The position numbers were made by a program, and so were the translations under genes. From a virus, in IMG/VR virus record IMGVR_UViG_3300043827_000384, positions 1 through 39,560 of that record: a stretch of 39,560 nucleotides of DNA; one strand, 5' to 3'. The notes under the pieces were generated by a model. That model was not told where the DNA came from and did no database searches. It was given only the letters and a program-made list of their open reading frames with translations. This document shows positions 2,773 to 23,500 of the stretch, one piece after another (position 1 is the stretch's first letter; every line of letters begins with the position of its first letter).

Positions 2773-3294
2773 ATGATTTTTGCCGAAGAAATTGTTAACT
2801 ATGAAAGTCACAAAAATGCACTAAAGGATAGGGATAATCATCCATATATTAATTCTAAGTTTCTCGTTTATAAGGAAATGAGTAGCAAAAAAAAGGGTAA
2901 ATATTTTGAAATAATTGTTGAAGAATATCTAGAGAAAAATGGTTACAAAGTAAGTAAAGCAAAAAATACAGATCATGATCGTATCATTAATAATCTTATC
3001 AAACTTGAAATTAAAAGTTCTCTACTTTGGGGTACAGGCACACATTTTCGTTGGCAGCAAATTCGTACATCTCAAGACTATGATTTGATGTGTTTTCTTG
3101 CTGTATATCCTGATCGTATTCAATTTTACGGTGCCACTAAAGATGTGATAAAATCTAACTTAGAAGTACAAGATGAAAATGGCAAATGGACTTACAATCA
3201 ACATGGTGGAAAGCGTATTAATTCTGGTACTTTTGTGATTGATGGTATGCCAGAAGATTTTAGTTGGTTTCAACCTTTGGAGGAACTTTTATGA
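2773..3294 (+). CDS. Putative type II restriction endonuclease (PD-(D/E)XK fold)
   Basis: A 173-aa protein. After a helix with EYLEKNGY (51-58) come Asp67/Asp69 (NTDHDRII) and, ten residues on, LEIKSS with Glu79-x-Lys81: the spacing and hydrophobic context of a PD-(D/E)XK active site. The following FRWQQIRTSQDYDLMCFLAV and DRIQFYG segments match the core strands that follow in many small restriction enzymes. The stop overlaps the start of a DNA methyltransferase (ATGA, 3291-3294), the strongest contextual evidence for a restriction-modification pair. The recognition site is unknown. Alternatives are a phage nuclease of the same fold or an inactive relic, although no catalytic residue seems missing. 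Confidence 0.65.
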   Translation: MIFAEEIVNYESHKNALKDRDNHPYINSKFLVYKEMSSKKKGKYFEIIVEEYLEKNGYKVSKAKNTDHDRIINNLIKLEIKSSLLWGTGTHFRWQQIRTSQDYDLMCFLAVYPDRIQFYGATKDVIKSNLEVQDENGKWTYNQHGGKRINSGTFVIDGMPEDFSWFQPLEELL

Positions 3295-4034
3295 TTGAAA
3301 ATAAAGATTGTTTAGAATATCTGAAAACACTCGAAGATAATAGTGTGGACATGGTTCTTACTGATCCACCATACTTTATTGGATTTGATGGTGGAAAGGG
3401 ATGGGATTCTCAATGGAAAAATGAATATGATTATTTGTCTTGGTGTGTTCAGTGGACACACCAGTGTGTTCGTGTACTCAAACCCAATCGCATGTTGATT
3501 GTTTGGGGAACACTCAAGACAGAAACATTCTTGCGGTATAAGTTAGAAATCAGCGATAAGTTTCCGATGCTTATGCCACAAAATGAGATCATCTGGAGTT
3601 ATAATTGGGGTGGGCGCAGTAAAATTAACTTTGCGCGTAAGCATGAATATGCTTTCTGTTGGTCAAAGGGTGATGTATTTCTTTTCAACGATAATGATAT
3701 TCGTGTAGAACGTAAAGTTAAGAAAAATCTCCGAACCGGACAGGATCATACACAAGGAACAATACCAACATGCGTATGGGAAAAGAATAATCATACAACT
3801 TCAAAAGAATTTTGTGGATGGCATCCTACAACAAAAAATCTTGAAGTTTTAGAAAAAATGATTCGTGCTTATACAAATGAAAATGATACTGTTCTTGATA
3901 TTTTTATGGGTTCTGGATCAACTGCAATCGCTGCCGAAAGATGTAATCGTAAGTATATTGGATGTGAACGTGATTCAGAATATCATTCAAAATCATTACA
4001 AAGAATTAAAGAACAAAATCCACTTAGTCTGTGA
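3291..4034 (+). CDS. DNA adenine/cytosine-N4 methyltransferase, beta class
   Basis: The ATG at 3291 is chosen over an upstream in-frame start because GGAGGA (3279-3284) lies just before it and it overlaps the nuclease stop as ATGA. This gives 247 aa. Motif IV, TDPPY (24-28), is N-terminal, and the AdoMet-binding motif I, DIFMGSGSTAIAA, is C-terminal. That order defines the beta class of amino-methyltransferases (N6-adenine or N4-cytosine). The DPPY form favours adenine. Segments WGTLKTETFLRYKL and WHPTTKNLEVLEKMI are typical of the family. With the upstream PD-(D/E)XK protein it would protect the phage genome while foreign DNA is cut. A role independent of restriction is possible. Confidence 0.85.
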   Translation: MIENKDCLEYLKTLEDNSVDMVLTDPPYFIGFDGGKGWDSQWKNEYDYLSWCVQWTHQCVRVLKPNRMLIVWGTLKTETFLRYKLEISDKFPMLMPQNEIIWSYNWGGRSKINFARKHEYAFCWSKGDVFLFNDNDIRVERKVKKNLRTGQDHTQGTIPTCVWEKNNHTTSKEFCGWHPTTKNLEVLEKMIRAYTNENDTVLDIFMGSGSTAIAAERCNRKYIGCERDSEYHSKSLQRIKEQNPLSL

Positions 4035-8254: not shown

Positions 8255-8380
8255 GTATTCGCGCAGATCGTAAAAAGGTGTGAATAAATGTATTAGAGTC
8301 TTTGATAAGTTTTTGTTATTATTCTGATGAAACTTGTGAAAGACTCTGATATGTTTTGTGTTCACTTATGTGTGAAATCG

Positions 8381-8581
8381 TGTTACTTATGTGTGAATAA
8401 ATGGTGTTACTTATAGTCCAATAATGGTGTTACTTATGTGTGAATAAATGGTGTTACTTATAGTCCAATAAATGGTGTTACTTATAGTCCAATAATGGTG
8501 TTACTTATGTGTGAATAAATGGTGTTACTTATGTGTGAATAAATGGTGTTACTTATAGTCAGCTTAGCCGTCGCATTATAA
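8381..8581 (+). repeat. Tandem 23/24-bp repeats, each a 7-codon mini-ORF
   Basis: Two alternating units share ATGGTGTTACTTAT and then differ: type A continues GTGTGAATAA, type B continues AGTCCAATAA. Counted from TGTTAC, starts are 8381 (A), 8405 (B), 8428 (A), 8452 (B), 8476 (B), 8499 (A), 8523 (A), and a final partial B at 8547. Read from ATG, B gives MVLLIVQ and A gives MVLLMCE, each closed by TAA that touches or overlaps the next ATG (starts 8401, 8424, 8448, 8472, 8495, 8519). The last start, 8543, runs to 8581 as MVLLIVSLAVAL. No Shine-Dalgarno precedes them. The first unit has ATC in place of ATG. Confidence 0.9.
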
Positions 8582-8706: not shown

Positions 8707-8790
8707 CCCCCCATTCAAGAACATCAGTGACACCTCGAAAAGTATCAGTAAAACTTATAAGTTGACTCACTGATGTTCTTGAATGGGGGG
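8707..8790. repeat. Perfect 24-bp inverted repeat with palindromic centre
   Basis: Left arm 8707-8730 (CCCCCCATTCAAGAAC...) and right arm 8767-8790 (...GTTCTTGAATGGGGGG) are exact reverse complements, separated by 36 bp. The spacer contains the 12-bp palindrome AACTTATAAGTT (8752-8763), which carries the CTTATAA core seen in the other arrays. It could extrude as a cruciform or form a long RNA hairpin. No T-tract follows, so a simple terminator is unlikely. Confidence 0.9.
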
Positions 8791-8898
8791 AATTGGCAGT
8801 GTATCAAAGTTACTTATATATCCGCCTTCGATGTCAGTGAATTGGCAGTGTATCAAAGTTACTTATATATCCGCCTTCGATGTCAGTGAATTGGCAGT
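8791..8898. repeat. 49-bp tandem direct repeat (two copies plus 10 bp)
   Basis: Bases 8791-8839 and 8840-8888 are identical, beginning AATTGGCAGTGTATCAAAGT and containing GTTACTTATATAT and CCTTCGATGTCAGTG. A third copy starts at 8889 and breaks off after 10 bp. The array abuts the right arm of the 24-bp inverted repeat without a gap and again contains the TTACTTAT core. Confidence 0.95.
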
Positions 8899-9000: not shown

Positions 9001-9133
9001 AAAAATTTTTTTGAGTATAAAAAACCGAAAACCGAAAAAAGTTATAAAAAAATTGAAAAATTTTTTTGAGTATAAAAAACCGAAAACCGAAAAAAGTTAT
9101 AAAAAAATTGAAAAATTTTTTTGAGTATAAAAA
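9001..9133. repeat. 55-bp AT-rich tandem repeat (two copies plus 23 bp)
   Basis: Units 9001-9055 and 9056-9110 are identical, and a third begins at 9111 and runs for 23 bp. Each unit starts A5T7 then GAGTATAAAAAACC, contains a doubled AAACCGA element and ends GTTATAAAAAAATTG. The phased A- and T-tracts should bend or unwind the DNA. TATAAAAA within each unit resembles a weak late promoter. Confidence 0.95.
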
Positions 9134-9156: not shown

Positions 9157-9192
9157 ATGAAAATATTTTTTAATGGTGACAGTATGATATAA
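9157..9192 (+). pseudogene. Remnant of an SGNH-hydrolase gene N-terminus
   Basis: The sequence reads MKIFFNGDSMI and stops. The first seven residues are identical to the starts of the two SGNH paralogues at 10966 and 11601, and the whole NGDS block matches the third (12313). At DNA level ATGAAAATATTTTT is shared with both. After the catalytic-serine block the similarity ends at once. This is best explained as the stub of a fourth paralogue cut off when the HNH and radical SAM genes arrived, or by repeat-mediated deletion. Confidence 0.65.
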
Positions 9193-9195
9193 ATA
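9188..9195 (+). promoter_or_regulatory. T4-type late promoter
   Basis: TATAAATA exactly matches the T4 late promoter -10 element recognised by gp55. It lies 47 bp before the HNH gene and overlaps the stop codon of the SGNH stub. It would transcribe the HNH, radical SAM and SGNH genes late in infection. Confidence 0.55.
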
Positions 9196-9241
9196 TAAAA
9201 AAGTCTCATAGATGCTCAACTAGTCATCATCTAAAAACTAA

Positions 9242-9634
9242 ATGTTACTTAGTTCTCCTCAAGAGTACTTACATCAAATGATTGTGACAAGCAAATCAGA
9301 AGCCGTAAAGATGTGGAGAAGTGCAATCAAACAAAAATGGAATTGGTGTTGTGCATATTGTGGAGAAAATAAACAAGGAATGACAATTGATCATATTATT
9401 CCTCAAGCACTAGGAGGAACCGATGAATTGACGAATGTGCTTTGTTGTTGTGAGGAATGCAATAAATCAAAGTCTCATAATTCATGGGAGGATTGGTATA
9501 TCAAACAATACTTCTTCAATCAGAACAGATATGATGCAATTATGGAGTGGTGTCGAATCAAGACAGAAGGAAAAACTAAGAGATATATAAGAGGTAAAAA
9601 TGGAACTCCCACACGAACACAGATTTATGAATGA
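9242..9634 (+). CDS. HNH endonuclease
   Basis: A 130-aa protein with a complete HNH module: zinc-binding CAYC (37-40), the catalytic strand MTIDHIIPQALGG with Asp50-His51, then LTNVLCCCEECNKSKS with Asn65, the second Cys pair C70/C73 and Asn74. The domain nicks or cuts DNA. In T4-like phages such free-standing genes often act as homing endonucleases that spread themselves and flanking DNA. Its place between a repeat region, a gene stub and a set of accessory genes fits that. The 3' end overlaps the radical SAM gene by 35 bp. Confidence 0.9.
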   Translation: MLLSSPQEYLHQMIVTSKSEAVKMWRSAIKQKWNWCCAYCGENKQGMTIDHIIPQALGGTDELTNVLCCCEECNKSKSHNSWEDWYIKQYFFNQNRYDAIMEWCRIKTEGKTKRYIRGKNGTPTRTQIYE

Positions 9635-10799
9635 AGTTATTTGTTCAAAACCATTCACATCGATTTATAATGCACCAAAAAAAAATTATAAACCTTGTTG
9701 TTGGGCAAGACACAATGAATTGATTCCCAATCCCACAGAAACTTTTCCGATTGATTGGTTTGAGAGTGAGCATCTTTCGAGAATACGAAAAGAAATGTTG
9801 GAAGGAAATAAAACAGATTTCTTGAGTCTTGCTTGTGGAACTTGTTGGAAACAAGAAGAAGAAATTGGAACTTCTGCAAGATTAATGCATACCGTAGATG
9901 AAAATTTACTGAATCAATTTGATGCAGAAGGAAAACCTTTATGGAAAGATAGATTTTTAAGAATTGAAATTAACATATATGGAAATTATTGCAATCTTGA
10001 ATGTTATATGTGCGAGAAATCTCATTCATCGTCAAGAGACAAAGTTATTGAGAAATTAGATTCAAAATGGAAAAAAGTTTTAGGGAAACCCTTTAATGAT
10101 TTTGAAGAAATTAATTCGATAACATTTAAACAAATTGTTGATCAATTAATTGAAAAGGCAAAATATATTCAAACAATCAGTATTGTTGGAGGAGAACCAG
10201 CACTGATGAGATCTCATCTCATATTCTTACAAAGATTAATTGATTGTAAAGAATCTCAGAATATAAATCTAGATTATGTTTCAAATATGACAGTATTTGA
10301 TTCAATTCAAATGAATGAATATTTTAAGCATTTTAAACATATATCTTTGCAGTGGAGTGTGGATGCACTTCGAGAAAGAAATTATTGGTTGAGGTATCCT
10401 ACTGACTGGAATAAAACTATCAAAAACGTAAAACAATTTCATAACATTGTTAAAAATGGAAAAATTAAAGCCACAATCACTCCAAGTCTTTTATCTGTTC
10501 TTACACTAAAGGAAACTTGTAATTGGTTAATGTTAGGTAATTATATCGGAAAAAAACCAGTAATTTGGAATACAATTACAAGTCCCAAAATTCTAAATCC
10601 AAGACATCTTCCGAATGAAATTAAAGAACATTTAATTTCAAAACTTTCCGGAATTAGTGAAAAGGTATGTAATATATTAAAACTTGAAAGAGATGAAAAT
10701 TTATTTCAACAAGCCTTAGAATACTGTGATGCCTTGGATCAATCCAGAGGAACCGATTGGAAAACTACATTTCCGGAATTGGTAAAATATTATAAATAA
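9600..10799 (+). CDS. Radical SAM protein with twitch/SPASM-like features
   Basis: A 399-aa protein. The [4Fe-4S] motif is Cys131-x3-Cys135-x2-Cys138 (GNYCNLECYMCEKS), and the SAM-binding GGEP motif is at 197-200 (SIVGGEPALMR). Further cysteines N-terminal to the core (C15, C33-C34 in KPCCWARH, C79/C82 in CGTCWKQEE) could hold an auxiliary cluster, as in twitch- or SPASM-type enzymes, although those usually carry it C-terminally. Such enzymes use a 5'-deoxyadenosyl radical to modify sugars, peptides or cofactors. The ATG at 9600 is preferred because AGAGG lies just upstream; 9627 is an alternative. The substrate is unknown. SGNH, oxygenase and glycosyltransferase genes nearby suggest glycan or peptide tailoring. 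Confidence 0.85.
   Translation: MELPHEHRFMNEVICSKPFTSIYNAPKKNYKPCCWARHNELIPNPTETFPIDWFESEHLSRIRKEMLEGNKTDFLSLACGTCWKQEEEIGTSARLMHTVDENLLNQFDAEGKPLWKDRFLRIEINIYGNYCNLECYMCEKSHSSSRDKVIEKLDSKWKKVLGKPFNDFEEINSITFKQIVDQLIEKAKYIQTISIVGGEPALMRSHLIFLQRLIDCKESQNINLDYVSNMTVFDSIQMNEYFKHFKHISLQWSVDALRERNYWLRYPTDWNKTIKNVKQFHNIVKNGKIKATITPSLLSVLTLKETCNWLMLGNYIGKKPVIWNTITSPKILNPRHLPNEIKEHLISKLSGISEKVCNILKLERDENLFQQALEYCDALDQSRGTDWKTTFPELVKYYK
10791..10798 (+). promoter_or_regulatory. T4-type late promoter at the radical SAM gene end
   Basis: A perfect TATAAATA overlaps the stop codon of the radical SAM gene (TAA 10797-10799). The next ATG is at 10808, so the transcript leader would be only a few bases. It probably boosts late transcription of the SGNH genes. 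Confidence 0.5.
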
Positions 10800-10807
10800 A
10801 AAAGAAA

Positions 10808-10969
10808 ATGAAGCTACGCAATTACGAGGTTTGTGCAGATGATCGAACTTTACGCTCAAATCTTACTTTCGAAGAAGCAGAGAGAACCGTCAATCTGCTT
10901 AAAAATATGGTCATGTGTGGAATACCTTCTGAATATAAAGTAAAATCTTTTTTTATTCGAAAGGCATGA
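10808..10969 (+). CDS. Hypothetical small protein, 53 aa
   Basis: ATG 10808 to TGA 10967-10969: MKLRNYEVCADDRTLRSNLT, then a helix (FEEAERTVNLLKNMV) and a basic end. It looks like a compact beta-alpha-beta domain. The stop overlaps the first SGNH gene's start (ATGA, 10966-10969). The function is unknown; the location suggests it belongs to the cassette. Confidence 0.6.
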   Translation: MKLRNYEVCADDRTLRSNLTFEEAERTVNLLKNMVMCGIPSEYKVKSFFIRKA

Positions 10970-11604
10970 AAATATTTTTCAATGGATGTAGCTGGACATA
11001 TGGTGAAGAACTTAAAAATCCAGAAGAAACTCGATATAGTAAATTGATTTGTAATCATTTTAATGCAGAAGAAACAAATATTGCGATTTCTGGAGGAAGC
11101 AATTCTCGTGTACTTCGAACCACACTTCTTGATCATGATATGAGTCAATATGATCTTGCGATCATTCAATTTACGACAAATTCTAGAACCGAGTATTTTG
11201 ACGATTCATATCAAAAATGGAGAAACATAAATATCAGTGGTGTACATAAAACTTCTCGAAAGAATATAGTCCGTAAATTTCATCAACATCCGGAAGGAAT
11301 TCATAATCTAGAGCATATTAATTTTTGGGCAGATCATTTTAGCAGCATTTATACAGATACTTATGGAGAGTCTGAAGAAGAAATTTGCTTTAAATCCATT
11401 CGAAATCATTTTGAAATTCAAAAGACTCCATATTTACTGATTACAATAAAATCAAAAAATCAAGATTATGATTTTAATCTAAATCGTCGAATATATCCAA
11501 TTGCTGTAAGGCAACATCCAAATGAATTAGGACATTATATGATAAGTCGAGATCTGATTAAATTGATTGAATCCCGCTATTCACATCTAAAAATAAAAAA
11601 ATGA
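10966..11604 (+). CDS. SGNH/GDSL-hydrolase-like protein, paralogue 1
   Basis: A 212-aa protein with SGNH block I at the N-terminus (FFNGCSWTYGEEL, candidate nucleophile Ser9), a glycine-rich block II (ISGGSNSRVLRTTL), a strand ending FTTNSRTEYF (block III-like), and block V HPNELGH (candidate His184). The Asp usually three residues before the His (DxxH) is replaced (VRQH), so activity may rely on a dyad or be altered. SGNH enzymes deacylate or acylate sugars and lipids. It shares long stretches with the next gene, so the two arose by tandem duplication. It overlaps its neighbours by ATGA at both ends. Confidence 0.75.
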   Translation: MKIFFNGCSWTYGEELKNPEETRYSKLICNHFNAEETNIAISGGSNSRVLRTTLLDHDMSQYDLAIIQFTTNSRTEYFDDSYQKWRNINISGVHKTSRKNIVRKFHQHPEGIHNLEHINFWADHFSSIYTDTYGESEEEICFKSIRNHFEIQKTPYLLITIKSKNQDYDFNLNRRIYPIAVRQHPNELGHYMISRDLIKLIESRYSHLKIKK

Positions 11605-12224
11605 AAATATTTTTCAATGGATGTAGTTTCACTGCAGGATATGAACTTAAAAATTCAGAAGAAACTCGATATAGCAAACTCATATGTGATTCTTACGGCG
11701 CAGAAGAAACAAATATCGCGCAAATGGGTGCAAGTAATCGCACAATTCTGCGCTCTACATTTGAATCAAATCTCAAAGAATATGACTTGGCTGTCATTCA
11801 AATGACATTTAACCCAAGAACAGAATATTATTCAGATTCTCGAAAGAGGTGGGAATTGGTATCTATACTTCAAAATACTAAAGAGACTCTCGAATCAATT
11901 AGTTCAAGTGAATATGATAATTTAGAGCATCCAAATTTTTGGAAATATTATTATCAGAACATTTATAGTGATACTTATGGAAATGAATATGAAAAATTGA
12001 TTCAGAAATGTCTTTTAGAACACTTTCAATGTCTTTCAATACCACTTATTCTACTTACAATCAATCATATTACTCAGATTCAGAATTTTGATTTTGTGCT
12101 AGACTGGAAAAAATATCCTACTTATCCAAAAGGACATCCTACCGAACTCGGGCACATTCAAATCAAAAAACAATTGATTTCAATTATCGAGTCTAAATAT
12201 CCTCAGTTTCAAAAAAAATTATGA
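11601..12224 (+). CDS. SGNH/GDSL-hydrolase-like protein, paralogue 2
   Basis: A 207-aa protein closely related to the preceding gene (FFNGCSFTAGYELKN; EETRYSKLIC; HPTELGH). Block I keeps Ser9, but the block V Asp is again absent (PKGH). The middle region, roughly residues 80-125, diverges from paralogue 1, as expected if the substrate-binding loops have changed. The start overlaps the previous stop as ATGA, and the stop overlaps the next small gene likewise. A role in deacylating or acylating a glycan is inferred from the fold only. Confidence 0.75.
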   Translation: MKIFFNGCSFTAGYELKNSEETRYSKLICDSYGAEETNIAQMGASNRTILRSTFESNLKEYDLAVIQMTFNPRTEYYSDSRKRWELVSILQNTKETLESISSSEYDNLEHPNFWKYYYQNIYSDTYGNEYEKLIQKCLLEHFQCLSIPLILLTINHITQIQNFDFVLDWKKYPTYPKGHPTELGHIQIKKQLISIIESKYPQFQKKL

Positions 12225-12313
12225 TTGCAAAACTTATTCGTTGGATTCGAACCGAATATAAGATGTGGAAACTTCGTCGAGAAGATCCATTCATTTATGA
12301 AGATGAAGATTGA
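12221..12313 (+). CDS. Small protein between SGNH genes, 30 aa
   Basis: ATG 12221 to TGA 12311-12313, with ATGA overlap upstream and TGATG overlap downstream: MIAKLIRWIRTEYKMWKLRR then an acidic end (EDPFIYEDED). The sequence is a strongly basic amphipathic helix followed by an acidic tail. Both junctions being translationally coupled argues that it is a real gene rather than filler. The function is unknown. Confidence 0.5.
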   Translation: MIAKLIRWIRTEYKMWKLRREDPFIYEDED

Positions 12314-12936
12314 TGCATATTTTATTTAATGGAGATTCCTTTACCGAAGGACAGGAATTAGGTGAAAATTATTTAAATCTTCGATATAGTGCAAGAATAT
12401 GTAAGGAACTCGGAATTGTAGAAAATAATTTATCCAAATCCGGATCCTCAAATGATCGAATCAAAAGAACGACACTCGAATATTGTCAAACAAATCAAGT
12501 CGATCAAATCATTCTTTGTTGGTCATATCCGGATCGATTGATGTATACTGGAGATGCTCCCAGTTCAAAGGATAGTCAATACGGACTACACTGGAAAAGC
12601 ACAAGTCCACTTCGAGCCAAATATTATAAGCATAAACCCTGGGTTCAGTTTTATCGAGATATTTGGACAGATGAGATGATGAGAAATAATTTTATTATGA
12701 ATTGCATTACCATGCAAGAATTTTGTCAAAATCGCCAAATAAAATTGATCATGAGTCATATATGTAAACCAGAAATTTTTCGAGGATTCAAAATTGACTC
12801 ACTCTTTGAAATGATTACCATGTTAGACGAAGAAGGGTTCACAGCACCCCCAAACATGAGTACCGGAGATAATATTCATCCAAATTCAATCATACATAGT
12901 AGATTCGCTCACAAGTTACTAAAACGTTTACAATGA
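12313..12936 (+). CDS. SGNH/GDSL-hydrolase-like protein, paralogue 3 (canonical residues)
   Basis: The ATG at 12313 overlaps the previous stop as TGATG, giving 207 aa. Block I is the canonical GDS (NGDSFTEGQEL, Ser9), block II is KSGSSNDRIKRTTL, and block V is GDNIHP with Asp186-x-x-His189. Unlike paralogues 1 and 2 it therefore has the full Ser/His/Asp set expected for an active SGNH hydrolase. It is more distant from the other two than they are from each other. The stop overlaps the oxygenase start (ATGA, 12933-12936). Confidence 0.8.
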   Translation: MHILFNGDSFTEGQELGENYLNLRYSARICKELGIVENNLSKSGSSNDRIKRTTLEYCQTNQVDQIILCWSYPDRLMYTGDAPSSKDSQYGLHWKSTSPLRAKYYKHKPWVQFYRDIWTDEMMRNNFIMNCITMQEFCQNRQIKLIMSHICKPEIFRGFKIDSLFEMITMLDEEGFTAPPNMSTGDNIHPNSIIHSRFAHKLLKRLQ

Positions 12937-13517
12937 ATCTGAATTTTGTTTGTCCGATATGGGAGTACCATATTCCATTAGATCAAAGATTGATTGATTT
13001 TGTGTATGAACATCGAAACGAACAAAAAAACTGGTCTTCAAATTATTTGGGTGCTTCCCGACATTTGTATCTTATGCAATTTGAATGCTTTCAACAATTT
13101 GTCGTAAATATCAAATCTACAATTCGAAAAAAATTATTTCTTCTCAAACCCTATCGAGAATATGATCTGAATCTCACTGCCCTTTGGTGTAATCTAAATT
13201 ATGCTGCAGACGTGGATTATGCTCATATTCACTATCCGGACATTGCAGGCGTGTATTATCTTCAGACTCCAAAAAACTGTGGAGATCTGATGATGCATAA
13301 TCCACATAAAGATACTTCTCAGGGAAAATTTGCTAGACTCTTCAAAGAATTCAAAACATCATATACTGTCACTCCAGAAGTCGGAAAGGGACTTATATTT
13401 CCATGTTGGGTTCCTCATCAGGTTCTTCAAAATCAAAGTGGCGAGGATCGTATTTCAATGTCCTTTGGATTTGAACTTATTGAAAAGGAATCTATAGTTC
13501 CTTTTAAACACTTATAA
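12933..13517 (+). CDS. Putative 2OG-Fe(II) oxygenase
   Basis: A 194-aa protein matching the small TIGR02466-type oxygenases. The region WCNLNYAADVDYAHIHYPDI gives His98/His100 as proximal iron ligands, followed by AGVYYLQTP. The distal part GLIFPCWVPHQVLQNQSGED gives His162 and, with RISMSF, Arg173 for the 2-oxoglutarate carboxylate. Such enzymes hydroxylate or otherwise oxidise proteins, nucleotides or small molecules, and T4-like marine phages often carry them. It is coupled to the SGNH genes, so it probably acts in the same pathway. The last codons are part of the decamer repeat that follows. Confidence 0.8.
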   Translation: MNLNFVCPIWEYHIPLDQRLIDFVYEHRNEQKNWSSNYLGASRHLYLMQFECFQQFVVNIKSTIRKKLFLLKPYREYDLNLTALWCNLNYAADVDYAHIHYPDIAGVYYLQTPKNCGDLMMHNPHKDTSQGKFARLFKEFKTSYTVTPEVGKGLIFPCWVPHQVLQNQSGEDRISMSFGFELIEKESIVPFKHL

Positions 13518-13620
13518 ACTCTTATAAACTCTTATAAACTCTTATAAACTCTTATAAACCCTTATAAACCCTTATAAACCCTTATAAACCCTTATAAACC
13601 CTTATAAACCCTTATAATCC
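13511..13620. repeat. Decamer tandem array, 11 x 10 bp
   Basis: Four copies of CTTATAAACT (13511-13550), six of CTTATAAACC (13551-13610) and one CTTATAATCC (13611-13620). The first copy contains the stop codon of the oxygenase gene, and the preceding ten bases (CTTTTAAACA) look like a decayed unit. The period is close to one helical turn, so every copy faces the same side of the DNA. TATAAAC resembles the late promoter TATAAATA. Each frame meets TAA within 30 bp, so the array is not coding. Confidence 0.97.
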
Positions 13621-13672
13621 GCTTAACCAGCAAATCGCCTCTCTTGATAAGGAACTTGAAAACAAATCATGA
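13598..13672 (+). pseudogene. Remnant of a gene C-terminus after the decamer array
   Basis: Downstream of the last in-frame stop in the array, the frame reads NPYNPLNQQIASLDKELENK, then Ser and TGA at 13670-13672. This looks like a natural coiled-coil C-terminus. Its stop overlaps an ATG (ATGA at 13669-13672) that opens a 9-codon frame, MKKKTIDKL, the same junction style as real genes here. I infer that the array has eaten into or replaced the 5' part of a gene. Confidence 0.4.
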
Positions 13673-13684
13673 AAAAGAAAACAA

Positions 13685-13747
13685 TTGACAAACTCTAAAT
13701 ATTCTGGTAAAATGAATTGGGAAAATATTTTCCTGTTTACGTAAACA
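13685..13747 (+). promoter_or_regulatory. Sigma70 promoter with two abutting 14-bp palindromes
   Basis: TTGACA (13685-13690), a 17-bp spacer and TAAAAT (13708-13713) are a near-perfect sigma70 promoter. The expected start is near 13720, exactly where two perfect palindromes lie back to back: GGAAAATATTTTCC (13720-13733) and TGTTTACGTAAACA (13734-13747). They could be a double operator or two hairpins at the 5' end of the mRNA. CTAAATATT (13695-13703) inside the spacer is late-promoter-like. Confidence 0.65.
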
Positions 13748-13765
13748 AATTTTGAAAATTATCAT

Positions 13766-14524
13766 ATGTCAAAAGGATTTAAAGTAGTTACTAAACCTCC
13801 GGTAAAAACGGAGTCTCAAGATACATTTAATCTTGAGGCAGCAAAGGAAATGATAAAAGATAAAAGTATTGTCTTTTGCCTTCCCGGAAGAGGAGTTTCC
13901 TACACATATCTCAAAAACTTTGTTCAACTTTGTTTTGATTTAGTACAAGCAGGAGCTTCGATTCAGATTAGCCAAGACTATAGTTCTATGGTAAACTTTG
14001 CTCGTTGCAAATGTCTAGGAGCAAATGTTCTAAGAGGTCCGGACCAATTGCCATGGGATGGTAAACTTAAGTATGATTATCAATTATGGATTGATAGTGA
14101 TATTGTATTCAATACAGAAAAATTCTATCGTCTAGTCGCAATGGATAAAGACATTGCATGTGGATGGTATTGTACCGAAGATGGAGTCACAACTTCAGTT
14201 GCTCATTGGCTGGAAGAAGATGATTTCAAAAATAATGGTGGAGTAATGAATCATGAACTGCTGGATGGCATTCAGAAGCGTCGTAAACCATTTACTGTTG
14301 ATTATACTGGATTTGGTTGGACTCTCATCAAGAATGGTGTATTCGAGCACGAGGAAATGAAATATCCTTGGTTTGCTCCACAAATGCAAGTATTTGATTC
14401 TGGAGAAGTTCAGGATATGTGTGGTGAAGATGTTTCGTTTTGTTTAGATGCAATCAAAGCAGGATTTGAAATTTGGTGTGATCCACAATGTAGAGTAGGA
14501 CACGAAAAAACTCGAATAATTTAA
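13766..14524 (+). CDS. Glycosyltransferase, GT-A fold
   Basis: A 252-aa protein. After an N-terminal extension come the nucleotide-sugar strand SIVFCLPGRGVSYTYLKN (34-51), the metal-binding DxD motif in LWIDSDIVF (Asp110, Asp112), FTVDYTGFGWTLIKNGVF with the usual acceptor-side Gly-Phe-Gly, and GEDVSFCLDAIKAGFEIWCD with the catalytic-type Glu221-Asp222, ending with VGHEK (His246). These are the hallmarks of inverting GT2-like GT-A enzymes. It could glycosylate DNA, virion proteins or a host surface glycan. It has its own promoter (13685-13713) and a terminator (14536-14560), so it may be regulated apart from the late genes. Confidence 0.85.
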   Translation: MSKGFKVVTKPPVKTESQDTFNLEAAKEMIKDKSIVFCLPGRGVSYTYLKNFVQLCFDLVQAGASIQISQDYSSMVNFARCKCLGANVLRGPDQLPWDGKLKYDYQLWIDSDIVFNTEKFYRLVAMDKDIACGWYCTEDGVTTSVAHWLEEDDFKNNGGVMNHELLDGIQKRRKPFTVDYTGFGWTLIKNGVFEHEEMKYPWFAPQMQVFDSGEVQDMCGEDVSFCLDAIKAGFEIWCDPQCRVGHEKTRII

Positions 14525-14574: not shown

Positions 14575-14742
14575 ATGGAAAAATATAATATATACAATGT
14601 GGGGAAGAAAATTTTTTCTGCTGTCTCTGAAGAAAAAATGATGGAGATTACTCAAAATCTTGCTGATGATTTTTATAAAACAGGAACTCCCCATCCTGAC
14701 GATATTGTGGTAGAATATATTGGTTGTGATATTGATGAATAA
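14575..14742 (+). CDS. Small conserved phage protein, 55 aa
   Basis: ATG 14575 to TAA 14740-14742. Reads MEKYNIYNVGKKIFSAVSEE, a helix (KMMEITQNLADDFY), then TGTPHPDDIVVEYIGCD. From memory this beta-alpha-beta pattern (YDIYNNG...F...L.D.FY..G.PHPD) occurs as a small protein next to structural genes in T4-like cyanophages. The function is unknown. Confidence 0.65.
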   Translation: MEKYNIYNVGKKIFSAVSEEKMMEITQNLADDFYKTGTPHPDDIVVEYIGCDIDE

Positions 14743-15146: not shown

Positions 15147-15293
15147 ATGACAAACAAAACTCAATCTAAAGAAGACGTATGCAAATTATTCATTCAAAAT
15201 GAATTGCATCAAAAAATTCGTAATGATGAAGATTATGATGATTGGACATATGGAACAGAACCTACATATCAAATGCCTCTAAATAAAGAATAA
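15147..15293 (+). CDS. Small acidic phage protein, 48 aa
   Basis: The frame is open from a TTG at 15078, but the first ATG is 15147 and gives a normal soluble protein (MTNKTQSKEDVCKLFIQNEL), ending with an acidic, Tyr-rich stretch (DEDYDDWTYGTEPTYQMPLN). Its stop is the first codon of a late promoter element. It directly precedes the baseplate block. Confidence 0.5.
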   Translation: MTNKTQSKEDVCKLFIQNELHQKIRNDEDYDDWTYGTEPTYQMPLNKE

Positions 15294-15315: not shown

Positions 15316-15720
15316 GTGCCTCTTCAAAATATTTCTAGAGGTTTCAAAGACATTTCTTTGTCTTTTGCCCAACATCCAGTCACAAAGGATATTCTTGCAC
15401 TCAAAAATGCGGATGCAATCAAGCGTTCTGTTCAAAATTTAATAAGAATTCGCATTGGAGAAGTATTTTTTAATAATTTGATTGGTACAAAAATTGAAGA
15501 CAGTCTTTTTGAACTTGCATCTCAAAATTTTTTAGATCCAATTAAATCTGAAATTGAAACCGTTATTCAAAATAATGAACCAAGAGTCAAATTGAATGAC
15601 GTAATTGTAGAATCAAATTCAAACAGTAATGAATTGTTAATAACAATTTCATATGATATTATTGGACTGCAAATTCCAAATCAACAAATAACATTTGTAT
15701 TAGAATCAACTAGACCATAA
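15316..15720 (+). CDS. 25: Baseplate wedge protein gp25
   Basis: A 134-aa protein, close to T4 gp25 (132 aa). It starts with GTG: MPLQNISRGFKDISLSFAQH, the typical cyanophage gp25 start. It contains ALKNADAIKRSVQNLI, FFNNLIGTKI, SLFEL, and the EPR motif at 88-90 (NNEPRVKL), diagnostic of the GPW/gp25 family. gp25 is a sheath-like core wedge component that, with gp6 and gp53, joins the baseplate to the tail tube and sheath and helps nucleate sheath assembly. The stop overlaps the gp6 start as TAATG. Confidence 0.95.
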   Translation: MPLQNISRGFKDISLSFAQHPVTKDILALKNADAIKRSVQNLIRIRIGEVFFNNLIGTKIEDSLFELASQNFLDPIKSEIETVIQNNEPRVKLNDVIVESNSNSNELLITISYDIIGLQIPNQQITFVLESTRP

Positions 15721-17597
15721 TGTCATTTACTCAATACACAAACCTCAATTTTGAGGATATAAAGACATCCATAAAAGATTATTTAAGATCAAATTCAAAT
15801 TTTTCGGATTTTGATTTTGAAGGTTCTAATTTATCAGTAATTATTAATACTTTAGCGTATAATACTTATATTACTGCATATAACACCAATATGGTGGTCA
15901 ATGAAAGTTTTATTGACAGTGCGACATTAAGAGAAAATATTGTTTCACTTGCAAGAAACATTGGATATGTTCCACGTTCAAAAAGATCTGCAAAGGCGTC
16001 GGTAAATATTTCTATATCTGGAATTAGTACTACAACAAAAACAATTACACTTCAGCCCGGATTTGTGGCTAGTGGATTAGGATATGATGTAAATTATAAT
16101 TTTTCATTACCGGAAACAGTTAATATTGCTGCAAATAATGGAACTGCAAATGGTATAGTTGACATCTATCAAGGACAATATCTAGAAAAAAATTGGACAG
16201 TTGATACTTCACAACCAAATCAACGTTATATTTTACCGAATGATAGTATTGACACATCAACATTACGAGTAAAAATTCAGAATACTTCTACGGATACCAC
16301 AATTACTGAATTCAATCTTATTGATAACATTATTGGTATCAATTCAACATCAAATATTTACTTAATACAAGAAACAACTGATGAAAAATATGAATTATTG
16401 TTTGGTGATGGAATTTTTGGTAAAAAATTAATAAATGGAAACATCATTAAAGCATCTTACATACGTACCGGAGGTGTAAATGGTAATGGTGTATCAAATT
16501 TTGTATTTTCAGGAACAATTTATGATGATAATAATGCTCAAATTAATAATTTTACTGGATATATTGATCCAATTACTAGTTCCGAAAATGGCGATAGCAT
16601 AGAGTCTGTTGAAAGTATCAAATACTATGCCCCAAGAATGTATTCGGCACAGTATAGGGCGGTTACAGCAGGTGATTATGAGGCAATTTTACCATCAATC
16701 TATCCAAATATTGAATCCGTAACAGCTTATGGTGGAGAAGAACTAAATCCACCCCAATATGGAAAAGTTTTTATTGCCGCAAAACCAAGAAATGGCACAT
16801 ATTTATCAAAATTTACTAAAAAAAATCTATTAAATTCACTCAAAAATTATTCAATTGCAGGAATTGTTCCTCAATTTGTAGATTTGAAATATTTGTATGT
16901 TGAATTAGAAAGTTATATCTATTATAACACAAATCAATATGGAGATTCGAATAATTTGAAATCGGAAGTGGTTTCTTCACTCAATGCATATGCAAATGGA
17001 ACTGATTTTACTAAATTTGGAGGAAGGTTTAAGTATAGTAAGACAGTATCTATTATTGATAATGTAAATAGGGCAATTACTTCAAATATTACTAAGGTAA
17101 AGATGAGAAGAGATCTGATTGCAAGTATTAATAAATTTGCACAGTATGAATTATGCTTTGATAATGAATTTTATTCTGCAAATTCCGAATATAATATCAT
17201 AACTAGCGGATTCACTGTATATGGAATTGATGGAATTTGTTATTTTGCAGATCAACCTGATTCAAGTCAAAAAAATGGAAGATTATTTTTATTTCAATTG
17301 AATGGAAGTGATGTAAAAATAATTTCAAATAAATTTGGAAGTGTTAAATATGACACTGGAGAAATTATTATAGATACTGTTAATATTACATCAACCGAAA
17401 AAGAAAATAACATTATTGAGGTTCAGGTAATACCTTTGTCGAATGATGTTCTTGGAAGAAAAGAAGTCTATCTTCAATTAGATATTTCAAAAAGTCAATT
17501 TTATATGTTAAATGACGTAATATCTTCTGGAACAAATACTGCGGGAACTAGATTCGATACTCAATCAAGTTATCAAACAGGAAATAAAACTAGATAA
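15720..17597 (+). CDS. 6: Baseplate wedge protein gp6
   Basis: A 625-aa protein (T4 gp6 is 660 aa) placed directly after gp25, as in other T4-like phages. The N-terminus (TQYTNLNFEDIKTSIKDYLR, then FEGSNLSVIINTLAYNT and NESFIDSATLRENIVSLARN, GYVPRS) is characteristic of gp6/J-like wedge proteins. The middle has FGDGIFGKKL and the segment YRAVTAGDYEAILPSIYPNI, the conserved J-family core. gp6 dimers form the ring that holds the wedges together and drive baseplate expansion on infection. The next gene follows after one base. Confidence 0.93.
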   Translation: MSFTQYTNLNFEDIKTSIKDYLRSNSNFSDFDFEGSNLSVIINTLAYNTYITAYNTNMVVNESFIDSATLRENIVSLARNIGYVPRSKRSAKASVNISISGISTTTKTITLQPGFVASGLGYDVNYNFSLPETVNIAANNGTANGIVDIYQGQYLEKNWTVDTSQPNQRYILPNDSIDTSTLRVKIQNTSTDTTITEFNLIDNIIGINSTSNIYLIQETTDEKYELLFGDGIFGKKLINGNIIKASYIRTGGVNGNGVSNFVFSGTIYDDNNAQINNFTGYIDPITSSENGDSIESVESIKYYAPRMYSAQYRAVTAGDYEAILPSIYPNIESVTAYGGEELNPPQYGKVFIAAKPRNGTYLSKFTKKNLLNSLKNYSIAGIVPQFVDLKYLYVELESYIYYNTNQYGDSNNLKSEVVSSLNAYANGTDFTKFGGRFKYSKTVSIIDNVNRAITSNITKVKMRRDLIASINKFAQYELCFDNEFYSANSEYNIITSGFTVYGIDGICYFADQPDSSQKNGRLFLFQLNGSDVKIISNKFGSVKYDTGEIIIDTVNITSTEKENNIIEVQVIPLSNDVLGRKEVYLQLDISKSQFYMLNDVISSGTNTAGTRFDTQSSYQTGNKTR

Positions 17598-17598
17598 A

Positions 17599-20500
17599 AT
17601 GATAAGTACATCAATTAATCGAGTAAAAATTAGTGAAGTAATTCAAAGTCAAATTCCAGAATATATTGACTTTGAAAATCCAAGATTTTCTGATTTTTTA
17701 CGTCAATATTACATTTCACAAGAATTTCAAGGTGGAGTAGTTGATATTGCAGAAAGTTTATCTGAATATAAAAATTTAGATTTCTTAAATAAATCAAATC
17801 TTGTTGGTTATACAACTCTTACAAATGAAATTTCCTTTTTTGATGATACAATTAGCGTATCTTCAACAAAAGGTTGGCCTCAATCATATGGGCTTTTTAA
17901 AATTGATGATGAAATTATTACTTATACTGGAATTAGTTCAAATACGTTTACTGGTTGCATACGAGGATTTAGTGGAATAGAAAATTTACATTCTACAAAT
18001 ACTCCGGAATACTTAACATTTAGTTCCACAGGAATTACTACACACGTAATTGGAGCAAAAGTTAATAATTTAAGTAATCTTTTTCTGACTGAGTTTTTGA
18101 CTAAAATTAAAACTCAAATACTTCCTGGATTTGAAAAAAGAAATTTATATTCTACACTAAACGAATCTAATTTTATTCGTCAAGCAAAAGATTTTTACAA
18201 ATCAAAGGGAACCGAAGAAGCATTTAAAATTTTATTCAAAGCATTATACAATGAAGATGTGAGTCTTATCAAACCACAAGAATATTTGATGAGACCATCC
18301 GATGCAGAGTATATTAAAAATCAAGTATTAGTTTGTGAATTGATTGAAGGAAATCCTTTAAAAATTGAGGGTCAAACTTTAGTTCAAGAAACTTTGCCCA
18401 TGCAAACAAGTGGTGCAATTTATAAAGTTGAACCATTTTTAGCAAATAAACAAAAATATTATAAAATTGATATTTCTGATGGAACTATATTTGGAAAATT
18501 TATATCATATAATAGAAGTATAATAAATTCAAATGTTTCATCTGGATCTTCGATCATCAATGTTGATTCTACGGTTGGATTTGCAACATCCGGATCATTA
18601 TTTGTGAATGAAATTTTTATTAACTATTCTAATAAAAATTACAATCAATTTTTTGGAGTTACTGGGGTAACTACTTCAATTAGTATAGGAAGTACAGTTA
18701 ATTCTGGAATTGAAGCAATTTCTTATGAAAATGGGGATATTAATAATCCAGTCAGATTTAGAATTTTATCAATATTGTCTAATTTAAATCAAAATGCAAA
18801 TTATCAGAATGTAAATGATTATATTGATGTAAAAACTTTAGGAAAATCTCAAGAAGATATTAAATTTACTTCTTGGATTTATAATGCAAGTACTAAATCG
18901 ACAATTTTATCAATTACTTCAGTTGGTTCTAATAATTATAGAATAAAATTTTATAATGATCATCAAATTTATAATGAAGATGATGTTAATCTCATTTCAT
19001 TAGATACTTCGGATATTATTTCTGCAAAAGTAAATTCGATTATAAATTCGAAAGAAATACAAATTAATCCAGCATCATTTGATATTAATCAAAAATATTT
19101 TGTAAGAAGATTATTAAAAACAAATTTAAATGGAATTATTGCAAATATACAAAACACTTATGCTGACAATTCTTCATTATATGTAACATCAAATAGTTTA
19201 CCTCACTGGAAAATAGATGCAAAAAAAAGAATAAGAACTTTTACAAATTCTGGAATTGTAACAGATACTCAACAAGTTGCTATAATAGATCATTACTATC
19301 AAAGTGGAGATCTTGTAACATATTTTCATGCATCTACAAATAAAGCACTTTCTGGATTATCTACAGGACAATCATATTATATAAAAAAAATTACAAGTAA
19401 TTCAATTTACTTAGCATTATCCCTTGAAAATGCAAGAATTGGAGAATATATTACAATATACAATAATTCAGATTTAGAATCTACAGGAATTACTACTCAT
19501 TATCTAATTCCTCAAAATGTAGCATTTAGTGACCTTGACGGACAAAAGTTAATAAGAATTTTTGATAAACCTGCATACGATGAAGAAAGTGTAGAAATTT
19601 CCAATGGAGGAATTGGACTACTTGCAAATGGAGTTGAACTATACACATACAAATCTTCAAATAAAGTTTATTATGGACCTATTGAAAGTATTTCTGTTCT
19701 CAATGAAGGAAGCGATTATGATGTAATTAATTCACCAAGATTATCTGTTTCTCAATCAGGACATACTGGAGCTGGTTCTTCTATAATTCCTCACCTGCAA
19801 GGAGAATTGAAAGAAATTATTGTAGATTCCTCTGGATTAGATTATTTGGAAGAACCTAAAGTTATAATTTCTGGTGGAAACTCGAAAGGATATCTGGCAA
19901 AAGCAAAAATGAAATTAGTTAGTCATGATATTGAATTTAATAGTTCGAGTATTGGCGGAGTTGTAAATACTTCAACTGATATTTTTAATTTTCCAGAAGC
20001 TCATGGAATTAAAAATGCAGAAGAAATTATATATCTAACAAATGGAACAACTTCAATTGGAATTGGAACAACTCCAGGAACTCTAATAAATGAGGCATCT
20101 TATTATTGCATCAAAAAGGATGATTATTCATTTTCACTGACAAAAAATCTTTCAGATGCACTTTCTGGAATTAATACAATTAATATTACAACCAATGGTC
20201 AAGGATATCATAAATTTGAAACAAAAATAAAAAGATTAAAAGTTGATAAAGTTGAAATATCTCAAATTGGATCTAATTTTTATAATCGGCACAATACTGC
20301 ACCAAGTAACAATATAAACATTTATACTGATACAATTACAATTAATAATCATGGATTTTCTTCGGGTGAAATTATAAATTATTCGAGTGAGGGATCTTTA
20401 GTTGGTGGACTTAGTACTACAACAAATTATTATATAATTAAAGTAGATGATAATCAATTTAGACTTTCAAAAACAGAAAATTTAAATTCTCATGTTAATT

Positions 20501-23500
20501 TAACTTCTATTGGATCTAGTTTTCATATTTTTGCATATCCACCAATAACAGTAATAATTGATGGTAGGCAAGGTATTTCCACATCAAATGCTATTGCAAC
20601 ACCAATAGTACGAGGTAAAATTACAAATATTCATATTAAGGATGGTGGATCTGATTTTGGATCTATTTTGATGAATGATAATTTTAAACCAAATATTGAT
20701 ATTATTAAAGGATCTGGTGCTGTATTGAAACCATATATCGTAAATGGAAAAATTGAAAGTATCATTGTTAAAAATGGAGGAGAGAATTATTTTGATGTTC
20801 CGGTTATTGAAATTGTTGGTAATGGTTACGGAGCATATGCAAAGGCAGTTATTCAAAATGGAAAAATTATATCTGTAAATGTAATTCAAAAGGGAATTGG
20901 ATATAATCAAAATAATACTCAAATAACTGCAATCGTACCAGGAAAAGATGCAAAATTTTCTGCAAACTTAAAAGTATGGACAGTAAATGAAGTATTTGTA
21001 CGAAATAATATAAAAGATATTGGATCTGATGATGGATTTTATGCAACAAGAAGAAATGATGATTTAGGTAATCCTTACGTAAATTATTACGTTCCAAGAA
21101 AATTAAGAACTTTTCTGAAAGATACAGGAACAACTCATTCTCCCATTTTAGGATGGGCATATGATGGATCACCGATTTATGGTCCTTATGCATATGCAAA
21201 TTCAAATGGTTCTGGAAATTTAAAATACTTAAATTCAAGTTATACTGTAATTTCTGGATCTAGAATTTCTGGTCCAAATTTATCAACATATCCTGCAGGA
21301 TTTTTTGTAGAAGATTATAGATATTCAAATGGAACTGGAGATTTAGATGAACATAATGGAAGATTTGCAGTTACTCCAGAATATCCAAATGGAGTATATG
21401 CTTATTATGCAACAGTTTCTTCGAGAATTGTAAATAATTCAGGAAGTCCTTTTAATAATTCCAGAATTCCAATTTTTCCATATGTAATTGGAAATAAATT
21501 TAATTTTAAGCCAAATTTATTTAATTTTCAATACGATTCAACGCAAGATAAAGATATAAGTTCATATAAAGTAACAAGAAATACAAAACCACATAAACTT
21601 GAAGAAGGGTATGAGTTTGTAAAAACACCATATATTGATTCTATATCTGAAGCAAAAGTTAAAAGTATTTTGGATGGATCCATTGAATCAATTCAAATTG
21701 AAAATCCTGGACAATTTTATAACGTAAATGATAAACTAGTATTCAATAATACTGGAACTGATGGATTTGGTGCGATTGGTAAAGTTTCAGAAATTGTAGG
21801 ATCTGCAATAACAAATATAACTTCTATAATTACTGGAATAACTTCAATTACTCTAGTATCAGATTCGAATCGAGTAACAGGCATCTGCACCATTCCACAT
21901 AATTTAAAGAATAATTCATATGTTAAGATTTCCGGAATTTCATCTGAATTATATGCAAATCTTACCGGAAATATTCAAATTAATGTAAAGACAGTTAAAT
22001 CAGGACTTTCTACAGAAATGTTGTCTACCGGACTTACTACGTCCATAACCATTTCAGATAGTGTATCTAAGTTCAATGTAAATGATATTATCAAAATTGA
22101 TAATGAAAAAATGTTGATAATGGGAGTTGATTTATATAATAATAAGTTAAACTTATTGAGATCATATGATAATACTAGTGGATCTGCTCATACGAATGGT
22201 GCAGAAATTATAAGACTAGAAAAAGAATTTAGTTATTATATTCCTAAGGAATTAAATATTAATTCTCAAAAAAATGAAGTTATTTTCTTTGATGCTTCAA
22301 CTTCAGTTGGGGTTGGATTATCGTATGGAGTTGGAATTGGTACAACAATATCATATATTGGTGCAGGAAATTCTATTGTTTATAAATTTATTCCAACAAG
22401 AACAATATACTTACCAGATCATTCATTTAAAAATGGAGAAAGGGTAATTTATTCTCCGGGAGCAGGAACATCATTAACAGTTTCTGCAGATGGAATAAAT
22501 CAATTTGTAATACCAAAAAATGTTTATATGCAAAAAATTGATAAAGATTTAGTTGGTATTGTTTCGTCACATGTTGGAATTAATTCAGATTTACAAAGAC
22601 TTTATTTTAATGGAAATGTTGGAATTGGAAATAGTCATTCATTTACTACAAATAGAACAATCATAACTGCAAATTTACAAACAGTTGATGTAATTGTTTC
22701 TACTGCAACATCTCATCGCCTAGTGCCTTCTGATACAGTTACACTATCGGTAGTATCATCTGCAACTAGTTCAATTGCAGCATCTTATAGTTCTGGAACT
22801 AGATTTATAAGTATTGGATCGTCAAATAATCCCCCAATTAATGTAACTCGCGGAGATTATTTAACAATAGATACTTCAAATGCAACTTTATTAAATACAA
22901 AACTTGATTTTTATTTAGATCAAAATTTCAATAAAAAATTTGTAGGATCTGGAGTATCTAGTTTAGAAATACGAAATTATTTTTCCCCAGGAGTAACCTC
23001 TTCAAGAACAATTATTCATTGTACTGAGCAAATTCCTCAAATTTTATATTACAAATTCAATTCAACAAATTTATCCAAAATTATTGAGACAAATAAAAAT
23101 ATTAAAGATTATAATAAAATTGTAATCAATTCTAGTAAATTTAATGGAACATACTCGATTACAACAACTACAGATCAGACATTTACTTTTAATATTTTTG
23201 ATATTCCAGAAAGAGTTGGATATACATCTAATTCATATTTAAAATACACAACAAATTCAAATCAATGCACAGGTCCAATTTCAAAAATAATTTTGCAAGA
23301 TGGTGGTAAAAAATATAAAAAATTACCTCAAATATCAATTGCATCAACTACTGGAAAATCTTGTGTTCTGAGACCATATGGCAAAAGAATTGGAAAAATT
23401 GGAAGTATTGATATTTTTAATTATGGGTATGATTATCCATCCGATAAAACTTTAGTTCCTCAGGCAAAAATACCAAATATTATAAAATTGAAAGATAATT

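Follow-up and report, generated by a model that had tools for sequence, protein, structure and literature searches.

A gene island of variable content upstream of the core glycosyltransferase in one cyanophage clade, with a probable role in glycan decoration

We analyzed a gene cassette in the IMG/VR virus record IMGVR_UViG_3300043827_000384, the whole 39,560-base sequence of which is referred to here as the window. Eight tightly packed genes lie on the plus strand between positions 9242 and 13517 and encode, in order, an HNH endonuclease, a twitch-domain radical S-adenosylmethionine (SAM) enzyme, a 53-residue protein (small53), the SGNH-fold proteins SGNH1 and SGNH2, a 30-residue micropeptide, SGNH3 and a 2-oxoglutarate (2OG)-Fe(II) oxygenase. 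The gene remnant, tandem array, glycosyltransferase and baseplate genes discussed below are on the same strand. A preliminary description of this region had proposed a modification system in which a radical SAM enzyme, three SGNH proteins, a 2OG oxygenase, two small proteins and the adjacent glycosyltransferase form one pathway. The named enzymes are all present by family or fold evidence, as are the small proteins of 53 and 30 residues, while the HNH endonuclease that opens the operon had been missed. The genes are coupled by stop/start overlaps of 8, 4, 4, 4, 1 and 4 bp, and one junction is an 8-bp gap.

The HNH endonuclease (9242–9634, 130 residues) matches PF14279 (E = 1.8e-13; HNH_5 score of 51 bits against a cut-off of 27.5) and phrog_2214 (E = 1.2e-28), and is 62–70% identical to its counterparts in the islands of related contigs. 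The radical SAM enzyme (9627–10799) exceeds the curated cut-off of NF033640, N_Twi_rSAM (E = 2.2e-79, 267.4 bits, cut-off 170). Alignments of homologues favor the start at 9627, with 9600 also open. The CX3CX2C motif (C131, C135 and C138) and the N-terminal cluster cysteines C15, C33, C34, C79 and C82 are invariant in the alignment. The 2OG oxygenase (12933–13517) passes the gathering cut-off of PF13759 (E = 8.3e-18, 65.1 bits, cut-off 27) and matches TIGR02466 (E = 4.8e-19) and phrog_81 (E = 8e-28).

Nucleotides are among the substrates of radical SAM and 2OG enzymes in other systems, and the radical SAM protein has a weak match to the viperin superfamily (29 bits to NF038283, 27 bits to the pVip model). 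The cassette might thus modify a nucleotide or another small molecule, including DNA hypermodification or synthesis of a viperin-like antiviral nucleotide. However, the viperin score is far below its cut-off of 180, whereas NF033640 passed its own, and we rejected a viperin or defense role on these scores. No replication genes are linked to the cassette, and the SGNH proteins, together with the carbamoyl- and sulfotransferases of related islands, are ill-suited partners for DNA modification. We consider action on nucleotides very improbable.

The three SGNH proteins show weak matches to Pfam GDSL families. The AlphaFold2 model of SGNH1 (10966–11604, with a GCS motif), built from 52 related sequences, has a predicted local distance difference test score (pLDDT) of 92.4. 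Its fold matches TesA, CE2, CE3 and GDSL esterases with Z scores of 12–14.6, being closest to TesA and the CE2/CE3-type carbohydrate esterases, and by this model SGNH1 is predicted to belong to the SGNH fold. Conservation agrees across 86 SGNH sequences, with the block I serine (Ser9) kept in 76 and the block V histidine (His184, of an HP motif) in 81. SGNH2 (11601–12224) is 47–48% identical to SGNH1. Sequence comparison of SGNH3 (12313–12936, with a GDS motif) reveals a DNIH motif, unlike SGNH1 and SGNH2, and its best match is the SGNH protein encoded between the carbamoyltransferase and the glycosyltransferase in a related locus (L039). The SGNH model also matches a 602-residue viral protein annotated as radical SAM (BFVD A0A6J5LTW5), which may be an SGNH-radical SAM fusion.

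Both small proteins recur in related loci. Small53 (10808–10969), a conserved small protein of the island, has 18 further distinct homologues there, adjoining radical SAM or carbamoyltransferase genes, and has no match in Pfam or NCBIfam. Relatives of the micropeptide (12221–12313, MIAKLIRWIRTEYKMWKLRREDPFIYEDED) were identified by tblastn, with E values down to 5e-12 and identities of 79–82%. The 25 distinct versions (one from the window and 24 from other loci) are 27–45 residues long, with the consensus IxxLIRWIKGEYKLWKLRxxDPYIYEDED. Most stand immediately before the carbamoyltransferase, the start of which coincides exactly with the micropeptide end in most relatives; sometimes an SGNH or HNH gene follows instead. 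The cultured-phage collection yielded no match to the micropeptide.

Either small protein could be envisaged as the precursor of a ribosomally synthesized and post-translationally modified peptide (RiPP), modified by the twitch radical SAM enzyme and finished by the remaining enzymes. Twitch/SPASM radical SAM enzymes frequently have peptide substrates, the micropeptide is conserved with W-x-K and aromatic residues, and small53 adjoins the radical SAM or carbamoyltransferase gene. However, conservation spans nearly the whole length of both proteins and neither has a conserved leader with a variable core, a pattern unsuited to a RiPP precursor, for which reason we rejected them as candidates. 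Furthermore, the micropeptide keeps to the carbamoyltransferase rather than to the radical SAM enzyme, no transporter or protease was recognized in the locus maps, and the bacterial block described below holds sugar-nucleotide genes. A RiPP-like pathway is unlikely.

Downstream of the cassette, a glycosyltransferase-like protein (13766–14524) matches phrog_1574 (E = 5.8e-119) and, weakly, the glycosyltransferase family phrog_34859 (E = 1.6e-4); the DxD motif of GT-A glycosyltransferases is present as an invariant IDSD. It is followed by a small backbone protein (14575–14742, phrog_3252) that occupies the same place in nearly all loci, and by the baseplate wedge genes gp25 (15316–15720) and gp6 (15720–17597), in the order annotated in P-SSM2 and S-SSM7. 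The cassette therefore does lie beside structural genes, as first proposed. The glycosyltransferase itself cannot be counted as a cassette member, as it had been: a near-invariant member of the cyanophage core gene set (phrog_1574, T4-GC 102), it also occurs in cyanophages without the cassette. Its homologues in 104 phage-collection records come nearly all from Synechococcus and Prochlorococcus phages, and in P-SSM2 T4-GC 102 is preceded by denV and a 2OG oxygenase gene and followed by gp25, gp6 and gp7. On this basis we assign the glycosyltransferase to the phage backbone, where it anchors the island. Since cassette-free cyanophages possess this gene and P-SSM2 has an adjoining 2OG gene, adjacency of the glycosyltransferase and 2OG genes alone is not proof of coupling. 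The P-SSM2 2OG protein is only remotely like that of the window, and PSSM2_105 was rejected as its orthologue, the match covering merely 28 residues. The core glycosyltransferase T4-GC 102 and the gp25–gp6 order are of the Kyanoviridae type, and psbA-type genes, present in two of the cassette-bearing records searched (of 192 kb and 122 kb), support the identification of these viruses as cyanophages.

Related IMG/VR contigs of cyanophage type were retrieved by scans for the radical SAM protein and for the glycosyltransferase. Comparison of these loci reveals an island in a constant slot, upstream of the phrog_1574 glycosyltransferase and the baseplate genes gp25 and gp6. The general order is a run of SGNH genes, HNH, small53, an SGNH or sulfotransferase gene, micropeptide, carbamoyltransferase, an optional SGNH, radical SAM, glycosyltransferase, small55, gp25 and gp6. 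The carbamoyltransferases are of the NodU type (PF16861, E = 1.5e-50; PF02543, E = 4.5e-29), and sulfotransferase-like proteins also form part of the relatives' islands. Among 44 distinct strong radical SAM proteins, 28 are encoded near the glycosyltransferase and have SGNH, carbamoyltransferase or sulfotransferase neighbors; the 15 with neither feature belong to other phages or to bacterial metagenome-assembled genomes (MAGs). Counting distinct glycosyltransferase proteins for which 1.5 kb or more of upstream sequence was available, 27 of 57 have a cassette gene upstream; these were drawn from the best 80 of about 600 matches, so the counts are not natural frequencies. In the glycosyltransferase tree the cassette carriers form one clade (27 cassette rows and one without, support 100/99), and the 29 sequences on the other side are all cassette-free. 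In the odd row of the clade (L048) an inverted glycosyltransferase stands beside carbamoyltransferase and radical SAM genes, and because of this inversion the automated count scored the row as cassette-free. Thus, the gene neighborhood is conserved in related contigs, and the main refuting outcome named in the preliminary description, random scatter with no conserved neighborhood, is not what we observe.

The island is essentially absent from cultured phages in the phage collection, and no cultured member of the clade was found. Within that collection the search for radical SAM relatives gave one single-cell virus without annotation, AG-345-D19, and otherwise just remote matches in two Vibrio phages. 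AG-345-D19 also carries SGNH, sulfotransferase-like and carbamoyltransferase genes. A single-cell study of Prochlorococcus and Synechococcus (PMC6122165) lists AG-345 among its extracellular-sort plates. Of two scans of genome contigs, the first gave no relatives and the second two distant MAGs; no close cyanobacterial host homologue was found in these scans, the patterns of which demand near-exact peptides. The radical SAM enzyme also occurs without the island, as indicated by a lone relative (L019, 3845–5146) in another T4-like phage, between a large repeat-rich fiber-like protein and neck-type genes. Another viral contig (L137) has a pair of twitch radical SAM genes.

The window represents a variant of the island, in which a 2OG gene is carried in place of the carbamoyltransferase and sulfotransferase. 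The elements that flank the carbamoyltransferase in relatives, the micropeptide and an SGNH3-type gene, are kept and directly adjoin, and the simplest reading would be that a carbamoyltransferase gene was lost from between them. Ahead of the HNH gene is a 12-codon element (9157–9192) encoding MKIFFNGDSMI and then a stop. Its 20-base start, ATGAAAATATTTTTYAATGG, occurs with up to two mismatches only at 9157, 10966 and 11601 (3 found, 0.01 expected), and several relatives have an intact SGNH gene at the position of the 9157 element, which is thus an SGNH gene remnant. The remnant and the apparent carbamoyltransferase loss indicate that the island turns over by gene gain and loss. The cassette proteins also diverge fast relative to the backbone: between the window and six relatives the SGNH proteins are 29–46% and the radical SAM proteins 38–49% identical, compared with 84–91% for the glycosyltransferase and 62–74% for gp6.

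Such turnover could suggest a loose set of genes that were acquired by a plastic region and retained beside a homing endonuclease, and that belong to no single pathway. The strongly variable gene content, the remnant at 9157, the missing carbamoyltransferase of the window and the HNH gene inside the island in many loci are all consistent with this, and endonuclease-bearing mobile cassettes have been described in cyanophages (PMC3037559). Against it, families and order are kept throughout one clade, stop/start overlaps link the genes, and an unrelated bacterium has a comparable combination. We judge a collection of unconnected genes improbable.

That bacterium is a gammaproteobacterial MAG, MED685 (G011, 1.2 Mb), which has a block of about 37 kb on contig 3. 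Twitch radical SAM genes in the block number at least eight; they are accompanied by a NodU-type carbamoyltransferase (E = 2e-147 against the phage model; it also matches the NodU model, below its cut-off) and an SGNH protein (E = 2e-11). Alongside these are an NDP-sugar dehydratase/epimerase, a PF03407 nucleotide-diphospho-sugar transferase, an aminotransferase, a fusion of GFO/IDH/MocA and DesII-like radical SAM domains (E = 1e-106, below its cut-off) and a weak Sulfotransfer_2 match. Deoxy-sugar and surface-glycan clusters have a similar composition. The MED685 radical SAM proteins are only around 25% identical to the phage enzyme, and the block differs from the phage islands in being bacterial and having many more radical SAM genes. 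Thus, the cassette families also occur side by side in an unrelated organism, there among sugar genes, and this parallel is the strongest clue to function.

We propose that the cassette is probably one form of a diversifying island, belonging to a single cyanophage clade, that serves to decorate glycans. We infer its substrate, the chemistry of each step, the acceptor and the purpose as follows. The enzymes would attach small groups to a sugar or alter those it bears, with the SGNH proteins acting as O-acyl transferases or esterases and the 2OG and radical SAM enzymes carrying out hydroxylation, oxidation, epimerization or deoxygenation, to which most relatives would add sulfate and carbamoyl transfer. 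Supply or attachment of the sugar would fall to the neighboring conserved glycosyltransferase or to one encoded by the host. The product may alter the virion, at the baseplate or tail, or the surface of the infected host, and a changed enzyme set would give a changed decoration. Of the tailoring of glycans or peptides first suggested, glycans are the better reading and peptides are less favored. The single pathway first suggested draws support from the conserved order in one clade and from the MED685 sugar block, rather than from adjacency of the glycosyltransferase and 2OG genes.

Several observations weigh against a glycan-decoration role. SGNH1, SGNH2 and most of their relatives lack the DxxH aspartate and the GxND block III, and some SGNH copies could be inactive or otherwise employed. 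The glycosyltransferase model is poor (pLDDT of 52.5, from a shallow alignment) and phrog_1574 is annotated as of unknown function in PHROGs. The window has neither the carbamoyltransferase nor the sulfotransferase, and peptides are common substrates of twitch/SPASM enzymes. The bacterial parallel comes from one MAG, and in a second MAG (G012) the stretches read show radical SAM arrays but none of the other families. In this second MAG (L106), up to seven twitch radical SAM genes are close together.

T4-type late promoters had been noted at 9188 and 10791. The string TATAAATA is present at both positions, but the window has 3 copies against 7.75 expected and ATAAATA is likewise rarer than chance. 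NATAAATA occurs at 15289, 25805, 28964 and 37940, 26–28 nt before the start codons at 15316, 25831, 28992 and 37968. These sites, which precede four genes outside the cassette, are likely true late promoters. Such regular spacing is confined to those four genes, with none in the cassette, and with both strings below chance the late-promoter argument for the cassette is weak. Between the cassette and the glycosyltransferase is a tandem array of 11.8 copies of CCTTATAAAC (13500–13617), the unit of which resembles a late-promoter core; it was not found in the other loci. Three further tandem arrays lie just upstream of the cassette (8358–8560, 8790–8898 and 9001–9133, with periods of 24/71, 49 and 55). 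Elsewhere in the window are an N6/N4 DNA methylase (3264–4034, PF01555, E = 6e-48) and a 2736-residue baseplate-region protein with a YHYH domain (17599–25809, E = 5e-27).

We compared the island to known systems. Pelagimyophages, which are also marine T4-like phages, carry, in hypervariable regions, glycosyltransferase and radical SAM cassettes for which surface modification was proposed (PMC7029224). They are SAR11 phages with the cassettes in the tail-fiber region, and the set of SGNH, carbamoyltransferase, sulfotransferase, small53 and micropeptide genes is not described in the available part of that report. Carbamoyltransferases, 2OG oxygenases and endonuclease-flanked mobile cassettes have been described in cyanophages (PMC3037559). 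Cultured cyanomyoviruses of the P-SSM2 type share the glycosyltransferase and baseplate backbone, and P-SSM2 has its 2OG gene directly before the glycosyltransferase; however, their carbamoyltransferase match is below 40% identity, and no close twitch radical SAM enzyme or SGNH array was found in them. By analogy, the Nod-factor enzymes (NodU for carbamoyl, NodH for sulfate, and acyl or acetyl transferases) modify a sugar with carbamoyl, sulfo and acyl groups, as the islands of the relatives would, whereas the window has neither a carbamoyl- nor a sulfotransferase. The MED685 block shares with the islands a twitch radical SAM array accompanied by carbamoyltransferase, SGNH, sulfotransferase-like and sugar-nucleotide genes. 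Searches of an open-access library uncovered no account of this set of genes. The island is best called a member of the phage auxiliary surface-modification islands, and itself a variant that the papers searched do not treat as a unit.

Lipopolysaccharide is an established cyanophage receptor (PMC4390846). A further-reaching view, which we regard as speculative and rather doubtful, is that of a lineage-defining phage glycosylation system. In such a system a shuffled enzyme set (SGNH, radical SAM of the twitch type, carbamoyl-, sulfo- and 2OG), together with two new small proteins, would furnish every cyanophage with its own virion or host-surface glycan, in the manner of an antigen-variation kit borne by the phage. 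Sulfotransferase, radical SAM and 2OG genes of phages mostly enter the literature singly and with no function assigned, as PMC10580990 states for phage sulfotransferases; here they belong to one heritable, fast-evolving locus. The tie of this locus to a core glycosyltransferase provides a testable hypothesis for the roles of both the glycosyltransferase and the auxiliary enzymes.

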